Shown here: piece by piece, positions 11,365 through 15,065 of the stretch | How positions within the stretch are numbered: the first letter of the stretch is position 1 | Layout of the letters: each line of letters opens with the position of its first letter | Assembly (NCBI GenBank): GCA_025937835.1 | Contig: JAICQO010000001.1 | Coordinates: forward strand, 62,001 to 126,000 | DNA from: Polyangiaceae bacterium | Lineage (GTDB): Bacteria > Myxococcota_A > Polyangia > Polyangiales > Polyangiaceae | Length of the DNA stretch: 64,000 bases | Direction of reading: 5' to 3' | Notes under the pieces: model-generated | Told to the model about the DNA's origin: nothing | Databases searched by the model: none | What the model saw: only the letters and a program-made list of their open reading frames with translations | Position numbers and translations under genes: made by a program

Positions 11365-11443
11365 TAGCTCGGCCGCACCGCGCGCGAAAACTTGGCCCGG
11401 CTGTTCCAGGCGCCATAAGCCCTTCGATAACAGCAACGGCGCC

Positions 11444-12808
11444 ATGGAAACACCAAGCAAGAACTGCAGTGTGTGCAGTGTGCGTTTCGACGTGCACTTC
11501 AGCTACCAGCTCGAGAGCTGGGAGCAGCAAAACCCGAGCGGGCAGAGCGTGCGCTACGAAGCCGCCTACTGCTCGCAATCGTGCCTCGAGCGAAGCCACC
11601 GCGACCGCAGCGACGGGCTCGTAGCCTGTAACGCCTGCGCCAAACGCTTCAGGGTCGAGCTGGCCGCGCAGATCGTGTTCACCGGCGGCCGCCGGCACTA
11701 CGCCTGCGACGCCGCCTGCCGCGCGCGCGTGCTCGAAGGCGCCCGCGCCGTCCGCCTCGGCGAGTTGCTCGCGACTCCCGAGCCTCCCACCGTCGCCGAA
11801 AACGGGCCCGTGCCAGTGCCGGTAAACGTGCCCGTGCCCGTAAACGTGCCCGTGCCCGCACGCCCCGCGCAGCCTCCCCCCCTGCCCTCCCCCCGCGCCG
11901 CCATCGCCGCCGCGCAAGCGCACACTCCGCCCGCTCCGGCCGTCGCCGTCCCCCTGACCCCCACCCCTCCGTCGGCCACGCAAATCAAGGGCCCGGCGAT
12001 CTCGCCGCTGCTCGGGACGCGGCCCAAGGTGCTCGCGGTGTTCAACCACAAGGGCGGAACTGCCAAGACCACGACCGCCGTTCACGTCGCAGCTGGCCTC
12101 GCCGCTCGCGGGCAGCGCGTGCTGCTGGTCGACACGGACGGCCAGGGCAACGTCGCCACCTCGCTCGGGGTCGGCTTCGAGCGCTCGCTCTATCACGTGA
12201 TCGTGATGCGCTTGCCGTTCCGCGAGGCGATCACGGTCGCCCGCCCGAACCTCGATCTCGTCCCGGCCGACGAAACCCTCGCGGCGGCCGAGCTCTACCT
12301 GGCCGGCCAGAAGCAACGCGACAAGGTGCTGCAGGGCCGCTTCGCCGACGCGCGCGCCGAATACGACGCGATCGTGGTCGACTGCTCGCCGAGCCTGTCG
12401 CTCTTGAACCAGAACGCGCTGGTGATGGCAGACGCGGTGCTGTGCCCGGTCGCCTGCGATTATCTGTCCCTGATCGGCGTGCGGCAGGTGGTCCGGACCG
12501 TGAAGCAGGTGAACCGCCTGCTCTCGCACCGGATCGGCTTCTGGGGCGTGCTGCCGACGTTCTTCGATAGCCGCGCGCGCGTCTGCCACGACGCGCTCGA
12601 CGCGCTGCGGGAGCACTTCGGCGATGTGTGCCTCGATCCGATCCGCTTCACGAGCCGCGTCAAGGAGGCGCCGTCGCAGGGCAAGACCCTGTTCGAGTAC
12701 GCACCGAGCTCGACCGCGGCGGAGGATTACTCGAAGGTCGTCGAGCGGCTGCTCGGTGAACCCAAGTCTCAATTCAACCCCGACCGCTCGATGGGAGAAG
12801 TAGCATGA
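11444..12808 (+). CDS. ParA-family ATPase with two N-terminal zinc fingers
   Basis: 454 residues from the ATG at 11444; the frame is open further upstream but lacks a sensible start. Residues 8-92 hold two similar Cys4 units, C8-x2-C11/C43-x3-C47 and C62-x2-C65/C88-x3-C92, apparently an internal duplication. A Pro/Val-rich linker follows, with a repeated VPVPVN unit. The ParA/MinD ATPase starts near residue 195: FNHKGGTAKTTTAVHVA is the deviant Walker A, VDTDGQGNVATSLG is Walker A', and IVVDCSPSLSLLNQNAL is Walker B. The downstream gene overlaps by 4 bp (ATGA). No parB or parS-like site was seen, so it is an orphan ParA, perhaps positioning a protein cargo rather than DNA. Confidence 0.9.
   Translation: METPSKNCSVCSVRFDVHFSYQLESWEQQNPSGQSVRYEAAYCSQSCLERSHRDRSDGLVACNACAKRFRVELAAQIVFTGGRRHYACDAACRARVLEGARAVRLGELLATPEPPTVAENGPVPVPVNVPVPVNVPVPARPAQPPPLPSPRAAIAAAQAHTPPAPAVAVPLTPTPPSATQIKGPAISPLLGTRPKVLAVFNHKGGTAKTTTAVHVAAGLAARGQRVLLVDTDGQGNVATSLGVGFERSLYHVIVMRLPFREAITVARPNLDLVPADETLAAAELYLAGQKQRDKVLQGRFADARAEYDAIVVDCSPSLSLLNQNALVMADAVLCPVACDYLSLIGVRQVVRTVKQVNRLLSHRIGFWGVLPTFFDSRARVCHDALDALREHFGDVCLDPIRFTSRVKEAPSQGKTLFEYAPSSTAAEDYSKVVERLLGEPKSQFNPDRSMGEVA
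11803..11860 (+). repeat. 18-bp tandem repeat inside the ParA linker
   Basis: Just over two copies of an in-frame unit made of GTGCCC words plus GTAAAC, coding for the VPVPVN linker repeat. It lengthens or shortens the hinge between zinc fingers and ATPase without changing frame. Confidence 0.7.
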
Positions 12809-13116
12809 GCGACCGAAGAGAGCTGCGAGAAGCAGCGGTGCGCGTCCTCGACCGCGACGAGGTCGAGGGCGTGCTCAGCCAGGCGTTTTACGCACGGCGC
12901 GAGCCCGAACCGGCTGCCGCCGTAGAGCCGGCCAGCAGCGAGAAACCCCTGCATTACAAGGTGATCTGCATCTCGATGTACACCGAGGATCTGAAGCGGC
13001 TCGACGGCATGGTCGATCAGCTGAAGGCTCGCGGGCTCACCAAGGCCAACCGCAGCGCGCTGATCCGCTACGCGCTCGGGGCGGTGGACGTCGAGAGCGT
13101 GCCCAAGGGGCTGTGA
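12805..13116 (+). CDS. Small ribbon-helix-helix-like protein coupled to ParA
   Basis: 103 residues. The first half is polar and probably disordered. The second half (YKVICISMYTEDLKRLDGMVDQL, then TKANRSALIRYALGAV) has the strand-helix-helix pattern of a ribbon-helix-helix DNA-binding or ParA-partner domain. Its ATG overlaps the parA stop by 4 bp and its TGA overlaps the GTG of the next gene by 4 bp, so the three proteins are made together. By analogy with small RHH partners of ParA on plasmids (known for the family) it may regulate the operon or stimulate the ATPase (inference). Confidence 0.7.
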   Translation: MSDRRELREAAVRVLDRDEVEGVLSQAFYARREPEPAAAVEPASSEKPLHYKVICISMYTEDLKRLDGMVDQLKARGLTKANRSALIRYALGAVDVESVPKGL

Positions 13117-14174
13117 TAGTTCCGCGCGAGGCCGGAGACTGGGCGCGCGAGCTCGGGATCTCGCGCGAGGCGGTCGAGCTCTACCTCGCCTCGGAGGTGA
13201 TCGACCTCCATCTCGATACGTTCATCTGGCAGCGCGTGTTCGGCTACGACCCGCTCGTCCGCCACGCGCGCCCGCCTCTCGGCGGCTGGTTTCTGGGGCA
13301 CGCGGACCTACCGCGTGCCCGCGAAGCCGCGCTCGCTGGCGCGACCTGGGTCATCACCACGAACCCGCTGCGCGACCCCGAGGACCGGCTGCGCGCGCTG
13401 CTCGACAACCTCACGCGCATGGCGGGGCTGTTCGCGCGGATGCCCGAGGACTACGCGCTGTGCCGCACGTTGTCGGACTACCGCGCCGCGCGCGCGAGCG
13501 GCCGCCACGCGGCCTTTCTCGGGATTCAAGGCGGAAACGCGCTCGACGTCGCGCCCGACGCGATCGAGCGGCTGCCCGAGGGCGTCGTGCTCCGGGTCAC
13601 GCTCGTGCATCTGTCGAGCTCTCGGATCGGGTACACGAGCTCCCCGCTGCGGCTCGGACCCGATCGCGGCATCGGCGCGTTCGGACGCGAGCTCGTGGAG
13701 CGCCTGGACGCCGCGCGGATTTTCGTGGACCTCGCTCACATCGGACCCATCGGGTTCTGGGAGGCCGTGGAAGCCCACGATCCGTCGTTGCCGCTGATCG
13801 TCACTCACACCGGCGTGTCCGGCGTGCACCGCCACTGGCGGAACCTCGACAACGCCCAGATCCGCGCCGTTGCGGCCAGCGGCGGCGTGATCGGGATCCT
13901 ATTTCACAACGCGTTCCTGGGCGGCTCGCTGTTCGGGGGAAAGGCCGAACGCGTCGTGGATCACATCGCGCACGTCGTGCGCGTGGCCGGCGAGGACTAC
14001 GCCGCGCTCGGCAGCGATTTCGACGGCGCGATCGTCCCCCCCGTCGATCTCCGGAGCGTGCTCGAGCTGCCGCGGCTCGTCGAAATCATGCTCCAACGCG
14101 GCTTCTCCCCCGAGCGAATTCAGAAGATCCTCGGGGGTAACTTCCTACGCGCGCTCGGGGCCCTGCGCGGCTGA
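13113..14174 (+). CDS. Membrane-dipeptidase (M19) family protein with altered metal site
   Basis: 353 residues, GTG start overlapping the preceding stop. The M19 metallopeptidase layout is clear: DLHLDT (H33, D35), H166 in the substrate pocket, DLAHIG (H209), VTHTGVSG (H232), RNLDNAQIRAVAASGGVIGI and GSDFDGA (D302). The glutamate that bridges the two zinc ions in this family, normally IEGG, is Gln139 here (GIQGG). Catalysis on dipeptides may therefore be changed or lost. There is no signal peptide, so it is probably cytoplasmic. Coupling to the ParA and RHH genes suggests a shared role. Confidence 0.88.
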   Translation: MIVPREAGDWARELGISREAVELYLASEVIDLHLDTFIWQRVFGYDPLVRHARPPLGGWFLGHADLPRAREAALAGATWVITTNPLRDPEDRLRALLDNLTRMAGLFARMPEDYALCRTLSDYRAARASGRHAAFLGIQGGNALDVAPDAIERLPEGVVLRVTLVHLSSSRIGYTSSPLRLGPDRGIGAFGRELVERLDAARIFVDLAHIGPIGFWEAVEAHDPSLPLIVTHTGVSGVHRHWRNLDNAQIRAVAASGGVIGILFHNAFLGGSLFGGKAERVVDHIAHVVRVAGEDYAALGSDFDGAIVPPVDLRSVLELPRLVEIMLQRGFSPERIQKILGGNFLRALGALRG

Positions 14175-14197: not shown

Positions 14198-14884
14198 TCA
14201 CGCGTCGTAGAGCGCCACGTCCCCGTCGTCGTCGTCGTCCAGCGGCTCGAGCTCGATGTCCTTCTCGTCCTTGTTCTTCGACGCAGACAGATCGGTGCCC
14301 GAGAGGCGCGGCAGGCGGCGCTTGCCGACCGGACCCTCGTCCACGTAGTCGCGGAGCGCCATCATGTCACGCAGCGCCTCGAGCTTGGCGAGCGCCTTGA
14401 CCTCGACCTGACGGATGCGTTCGCGCGTCAGGTTCATGATCGCGCCCACGTCTTCGAGCGTGGTGCCGCCGCGATCGGCCACGTCGAGCGCGCACGACTC
14501 GCCGAGGTCCCACACCTCGAGATCGGGGAAATTCAGCTTGATCGCGCCGGTGCGCGGCGAGACGTCGATGAACAGGTGGTGCCGGCAGGAGACGAACGGG
14601 CACGGGCGCGGGCCGTCGGCGCACTCGGCGCGCGTGCGCGGCTTCCAGTAGTCGGTCTCGGGATAGAGCAAGCGGCCGATCTCGAGCTCGCGCTTGGTCA
14701 TGCGCTTGACGCTGATCGTCCGCGCGCGCACCTCGCGCTTGCGGCGCGAACGGCGCTGCTCGCGCGTGATGTGTTCGGCGTCGCTGGCGAGCGCGGTGGC
14801 GCCGTCCAGCGCGAGCTCGAGCTCGAGCTCCTGCACCTGGTCCTGGGACGGCGGGTTCTGACCGTGAGAATCGTTCGAGTTCAT
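14198..14884 (-). CDS. Sigma-70 region-4-like DNA-binding protein
   Basis: 228 residues from the ATG at 14884; the upstream extension of the frame runs through non-coding sequence. A basic region ([26 protein letters not shown]) is followed by [27 protein letters not shown] and [43 protein letters not shown]. The last segment is a helix-turn-helix very close to sigma factor region 4.2. No region 2 is present, so it is not a complete sigma factor and more likely a DNA-binding regulator. The tail is very acidic. The MerR gene lies 181 bp upstream on the same strand. Confidence 0.82.
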
Positions 14885-15065
14885 GCGCAGTTCTCCGTGT
14901 GCGTTCTGCCGATGCGCGCACGATGCCCGTTGCGCGCCGGGTGCCGGCCCCGACGCGTTGGTACCGCTCGCTTTGGAAAGGGGGCGCAGGTGCCTTGGCT
15001 TTTGCTGGGCGCCGACGAAGCCTTTCGTCGGCAAAAACCGCACCGCGCCGCTGGGCGCCCGTGTC

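Follow-up and report, generated by a model that had tools for sequence, protein, structure and literature searches.

The locus at positions 11444-14174 of the window, by which we mean the whole 64,000-nucleotide stretch of DNA analysed here, raises the question of which of its genes form a unit and what that unit might position in the cell. The window is part of a Polyangiaceae-like draft genome, the nearest named relatives of which are Sorangium and Polyangiaceae MAGs. Three genes follow each other on the forward strand: (i) a gene for a ParA-family deviant-Walker ATPase of 454 residues with an N-terminal double Cys4 finger domain of the zf-FCS/MYM type and a Pro/Ala-rich linker of variable length (11444-12808; ZnF-ParA), (ii) a gene for a ribbon-helix-helix-like (RHH) partner of 103 residues (12805-13116), and (iii) a gene for an M19 (membrane dipeptidase family) protein of 353 residues in which the bridging Glu is replaced by Gln (13113-14174). 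An earlier, sequence-only reading of this DNA took the three genes for an orphan positioning system with the M19 protein as cargo or effector. The window sequence bears out the three reading frames and the 4-bp overlaps at both junctions, ATGA at 12805-12808 between ParA and RHH and GTGA at 13113-13116 between RHH and M19. Because 4-bp overlaps are common, they are by themselves weak evidence; that between ParA and RHH was found again in close relatives.

Other genomes separate the third gene from the first two. When the three-gene order was sought elsewhere, the ParA-RHH pair recurred, whereas the M19 gene adjoined it, less than 400 bp downstream of the RHH gene, in one well-supported Polyangiaceae clade only; in most genomes with the pair, M19 is located elsewhere or absent. 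On the ParA tree the M19-linked label changes twice, compared to 16.8 changes expected with shuffled labels, and the linkage would most simply be described by one gain and one later separation of 3 kb (L089). The conserved three-gene unit originally proposed is ruled out by this single, lineage-specific linkage, and the unit is ParA-RHH, with M19 as a lineage-specific neighbour outside the core system. A gene on the reverse strand at 14198-15043, beside a MerR-like gene, encodes a protein matching only sigma-70 region 4 and is likewise a conserved neighbour of the locus mainly in the M19-linked clade.

The missing metal ligand that the same reading had noticed in the M19 protein is real. The protein belongs to the same sequence family as renal dipeptidase (Pfam E=1.1e-60) and shares its remaining metal and catalytic residues, with HxD, both His and the late Asp retained; the lost ligand is the bridging Glu, the GxEGG of renal dipeptidase reading GIQGG in the window. 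Glu is replaced by Gln throughout this subfamily, in 26 of the 26 M19 sequences read, the window's included, so that the five-ligand site of M19 is incomplete in all of them; the other ligands are retained across the 26 except for HxE instead of HxD in two. We suggest that this Gln-type subfamily is probably altered in activity. Because unlinked copies share the Gln with linked ones, an operon-specific adaptation of the metal site is ruled out. A three-component system in which M19 is the cargo or effector of ParA-RHH would account for the GTGA overlap and for the short distance in one clade, but given that the linkage is a single lineage-specific one, that unlinked copies carry the same Gln and that M19 lies elsewhere or is absent in most genomes, we consider such a system highly improbable and M19 a bystander to ParA-RHH.

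The pairing of ParA and RHH is, by comparison, invariant within the order: among 59 genomes, the two genes are adjacent and co-directional in 52 of the 52 in which both were located, mostly with gaps below 200 bp. One further ZnF-ParA lacks RHH, at a locus cut off where its 3.6-kb contig ends (G031), and one genome has kept RHH although ZnF-ParA is missing (G009). Adjacency is also found in most named Polyangiaceae loci, and the pair reaches other Myxococcota classes. In a survey of 377 genomes of the phylum the finger domain was detected in 126 and RHH in 92, in a sample that consists mostly of MAGs and in which gene absences are uncertain. Among the other classes, a one-finger ParA occurs with RHH in L175, L176 and L180, and Bradymonadia-like genomes (a putative class name) have a two-finger ParA without an RHH neighbour (L161-L164). 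Using a simple gene caller for neighbourhoods, we also saw an RHH gene without an adjacent ZnF-ParA, in the order purH-element-rhh-M19 (L153:5860-6320), and a lone rhh after a pseudouridine synthase gene (L128:6001-6309). Uncharacterised proteins that have a hydrophobic segment at the N-terminus and match no Pfam family follow ZnF-ParA in three of the Bradymonadia-like genomes (L161:3407-4855, L162:5811-7190, L163:5771-7213) and RHH in L177 (6444-7988).

Within the family the pair is usually found behind purH, and in Sorangium-type genomes (L061-L064, G021/G368) parAB, tig, clpP, clpX, lon, purH and ZnF-parA-rhh lie in one cluster of ~12 kb. Inheritance of the pair is vertical, as part of the chromosome. 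Plasmids classically use cassettes of ParA and RHH for partition (PMC5393062), and the locus could on these grounds be a domesticated or decaying partition module of a plasmid or conjugative element (VirC1/VirC2-like) with no role in the host. Vertical inheritance across the order, strictly conserved motifs and the housekeeping neighbours, purH generally and lon-clpX-clpP-tig in Sorangium-type genomes, make such a remnant extremely improbable.

What, then, distinguishes the two proteins of the pair? ParA has two Cys4 fingers within residues 8-92, the first at residues 8-47 (C8/C11/C43/C47; 11465-11584, forward strand) and the second at residues 62-92 (C62/C65/C88/C92; 11627-11719, forward strand), followed by the Pro/Ala-rich linker and the AAA_31 ATPase domain (Pfam E=1.3e-46). 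The ATPase domain has the features of ParA-type deviant-Walker proteins, i.e. KGGxxK[ST], the signature Lys, the switch Asp and the Walker B Asp, and its catalytic residues are K203-GGTAK208-TTT, D230/D232/Q234 and D313. In the window Walker A reads KGGTAKT with Ala at the usual second Gly, as in two other rows of the alignment. All eight Cys and the listed catalytic residues are invariant across 27 homologues, in agreement with the initial description of tandem fingers ahead of a complete ATPase. The fingers carry the CxxC...CxxxC pattern of the zf-FCS/MYM class (TRASH-like treble clef) with an FCS-type motif; zf-FCS matches were obtained for 20 of the 27 ParA members (best 2.8e-8), the window copy itself being without a match. 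The structure prediction that had been recommended for the fingers gave an AlphaFold2 model with a mean pLDDT of 86.6, and comparison with an eL24-type finger by VIA-align gave a modest similarity for the first finger (Z 5.5, 43 residues, rmsd 1.8 A). No description of a zinc-finger ParA was found in the literature. We suggest that the fingers are probably a docking site for protein (or nucleic acid) that confers cargo specificity, which would make the double finger a possible partner-specificity domain on ParA.

Three parts of the partner are conserved: an amphipathic N-terminal motif (LxDxxEVxxVLSGxFY), after a linker the RHH core (HYKVICISMY...NRSALIRYAL), and a C-terminal VDxxxVPKGL. The strand-helix-helix pattern first proposed from the translation stands in so far as the family aligns to the RHH pattern and AlphaFold2 predicts two confident helices (60-75 and 83-93, pLDDT about 95); it found no significant match in fold searches. 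The window protein has no Pfam match of its own, and RHH_1 matches are weak (11 of 34 family members, best 0.011). Fold searches with the monomer using Foldseek and VIA-align returned weak matches, none significant, and a structure comparison with CopG gave a probability of only 6%; in RHH, pairing of the strand would require a dimer. Matches of the family profile to PDB look like chance, neither profile nor single sequence giving a detectable similarity or relevant match to PDB chains, and matches to PHROGs were weak only. Based on the pattern, the weak RHH_1 matches and the helix layout, we regard the RHH assignment as moderately supported. The partner-family alignment contains no invariant Lys or Arg before the RHH core of the kind expected for an arginine finger.

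A hint to the function of the pair comes from the DNA upstream of it. The new finding is a rare element upstream of parA-rhh that recurs in front of ftsA. In the window this element lies at 11388-11416 on the forward strand and consists of AAACTTGGCC and a displaced second half; the consensus in relatives is WWAYTTGGCC-N13-YRTG, and the window copy is among the weaker ones, its first half being exact and its second half (CCAT) ~3 nt out of register. A TTGGCC-type core is present upstream of ParA in 66 of 68 named loci (TTGACC or TTGTCC in four of these), typically with an AT-rich stretch upstream and YRTG 13 bases downstream. In 1.24 Mb the strict element matched 41 times, with 40 matches preceding ZnF-parA and one (L153) preceding an rhh without ParA, compared to 0 matches in the reversed-sequence background of the same 1.24 Mb. 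The lone rhh of L128 has the element with one base changed, AAAGTTGGCC, in an unrelated gene context. Between the element and parA lies a further motif, CTTCGATAAC (11423-11432, forward strand), which is present in most of L081-L098 and in L118 and L132 and resembles a sigma-28 -10 element.

Scanning 25 whole genomes with a stricter form, in which the second half is YRTGNY, gave 26 matches compared to 1 for a control pattern. Nine of these lie within copies of repeated sequence in one genome (G011); the 17 others lie directly upstream of ftsA (9), before parA or rhh (3) or elsewhere (5). A separate look at ftsA upstream regions found TTGGCC in 19 of the 19 RHH-bearing Polyangiaceae genomes tested, 17 of them with YRTG at the exact spacing; the window's own genome (L220) is among the RHH-bearing genomes with the ftsA element, as GGAACTTGGCC-N13-CATGGCAGC. 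In many of the ftsA regions (L219-L241) the element is followed by GCAGCGTC. With 0-3 strict matches per genome outside the one repeat-rich genome, a general housekeeping promoter is ruled out. Compared with a sigma-70 promoter, the TTG/TG spacing fits an extended -10, but the -10 hexamer lacks the richness in AT. Upstream of parA there is one conserved element, and no repeat array resembling a centromere was detected.

The element may serve RHH as an operator, or some other factor as a promoter, and the reader may not be RHH because the two RHH-less genomes of the family keep degenerate forms at ftsA (G105 without the second half, G110 with TTGCCC). These observations bear on an alternative in which RHH mainly controls transcription, with its own operon and ftsA as a small division regulon, and ParA modulates RHH and does not move cargo. 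The presence of the element before both parA-rhh and ftsA, its persistence with rhh where ParA is absent and its degradation at ftsA in each of the RHH-less genomes are as this alternative would have it; on the other hand, there are just two such genomes, each with half of the element intact, the same appearance would be expected of a promoter recognised by some sigma factor or other regulator, and other families of the order have looser related forms, as read by eye. We therefore consider a regulon without transport quite unlikely. In total, the sequence evidence points to a link to cell division via ftsA rather than to M19, and the part of the original proposal that described a ParA-RHH positioning system is upheld by the invariant pairing, the recurrent overlap, the RHH fit and the known cargo-positioning role of such ATPases, whereas the M19 part is not.

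Canonical ParB was detected in 9 of 9 genomes examined, and the pair therefore comes on top of ParABS; a separate parAB locus in the window's own genome makes the label orphan a fair one. The distance to canonical parAB is 10-12 kb in Sorangium-type genomes and 88-89 kb in two genomes of another family. In G048, a complete genome of 10.3 Mb, roughly half of the genome separates the locus from dnaA, near which the GC skew has its minimum (20 sampled points; noisy), and an origin-proximal centromere at the locus is unlikely on account of this position. parABS loci are usually origin-proximal; in six complete or near-complete Myxococcota genomes (G048, G382, G027, G064, G133, G193) canonical parB itself is found ~0.4-0.5 genome from dnaA. 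Alternatively, the pair could be a second segregation or organisation machine like SegAB, in which RHH binds many chromosomal sites, ParA pulls, and the ftsA link reflects shared cell-cycle expression only. The proximity to parAB in these genomes would suit such a machine, as does the precedent of Sulfolobales SegAB, where ParA and RHH are paired on the chromosome and the RHH sites are scattered (PMC12284271); with ParB present in all nine genomes, the G048 locus far from dnaA and no site array detected, we think it unlikely.

MinC scored above the cut-off in 62 of the 377 phylum genomes and occurs together with ZnF-ParA in 3 (all f15) compared to 20.7 expected (Fisher p 1.4e-8, a value that overstates the effect because families are not independent). 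This anticorrelation is largely phylogenetic. Among genomes of the same order that lack the pair, G110 has MinC and G045 a full minCDE operon (L272:3907-6021).

Combining these observations, we favor a model, to which we give about an even chance, in which ParA-RHH is a chromosomal two-gene positioning module that probably couples nucleoid position to division. In this model, (i) ATP-bound ParA dimers would coat the nucleoid, (ii) RHH dimers would bind DNA via their core, probably including their own promoter region, (iii) the N-terminal helix of RHH would stimulate the ParA ATPase by analogy with ParF-ParG, (iv) the complex marked by RHH would travel along the nucleoid or be kept in place there, as with ParF-ParG and SegA-SegB, and (v), less surely, the module would couple nucleoid position or segregation to the placement or timing of the Z-ring. 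We infer the last step, and with it a role in division, because ftsA has the same control element and MinC is missing from most of the hosts. The shared element further suggests that the moved object or the read-out concerns division or nucleoid position and that the module may be expressed together with the divisome. A more specific version, in which Polyangiales use ZnF-ParA-RHH in the role of MinCDE or PomXYZ, as their division-site or nucleoid-division coupling system, with expression of the pair locked to ftsA by a dedicated promoter element, is possible but doubtful. In Polyangiales such as Sorangium, ring placement is explained neither by MinC, which is mostly missing in the hosts, nor by PomX/Y, and the conserved ParA-RHH pair, whose rare element is also found at ftsA, offers a specific candidate for this function that can be put to the test.

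Several known systems resemble the pair in part. In PomX/PomY/PomZ of Myxococcus xanthus and in MinCDE, a ParA/MinD ATPase is tied to Z-ring placement, a tie that we infer for the window pair; the window ParA differs by its fingers and its RHH partner and has no PomX/Y or MinC/E partner. PomX and PomY have been reported together with PomZ in Cystobacterineae (PMC7993993), and ParG (PMC5393062) and PomX (PMC7993993) both use basic residues for ATPase activation. The CdbA and CdbB proteins of Myxococcales are RHH nucleoid proteins of 67 and 86 residues that act on chromosome organisation (PMC7156744); they are encoded with each other, whereas the window RHH is encoded with a ParA. In type Ib partition systems (ParF-ParG and delta-omega), ParA is followed by a small protein with a flexible N-terminus and an RHH domain, and in ParF-ParG a helix from the N-terminus of the partner enters the interface of the ParA dimer (PMC5393062). 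The window pair shares the RHH partner directly downstream of parA; in contrast to the small type Ib ParA, its ParA has a double finger domain of ~100 residues and a linker, and in contrast to type Ib plasmid partition it is chromosomal, without the conserved arginine-finger residue and with no centromere repeat array seen. SegA-SegB of Sulfolobales combines a chromosomal ParA orthologue and an RHH DNA-binding partner in one cassette, SegB being without sequence identity to bacterial proteins (PMC12284271). The window pair is likewise a chromosomal ParA-RHH cassette; it is bacterial, its ParA carries double zinc fingers, and having an element in common with ftsA is particular to it. If the model is correct, the pair would be a bacterial equivalent, encoded on the chromosome, of SegAB in archaea.
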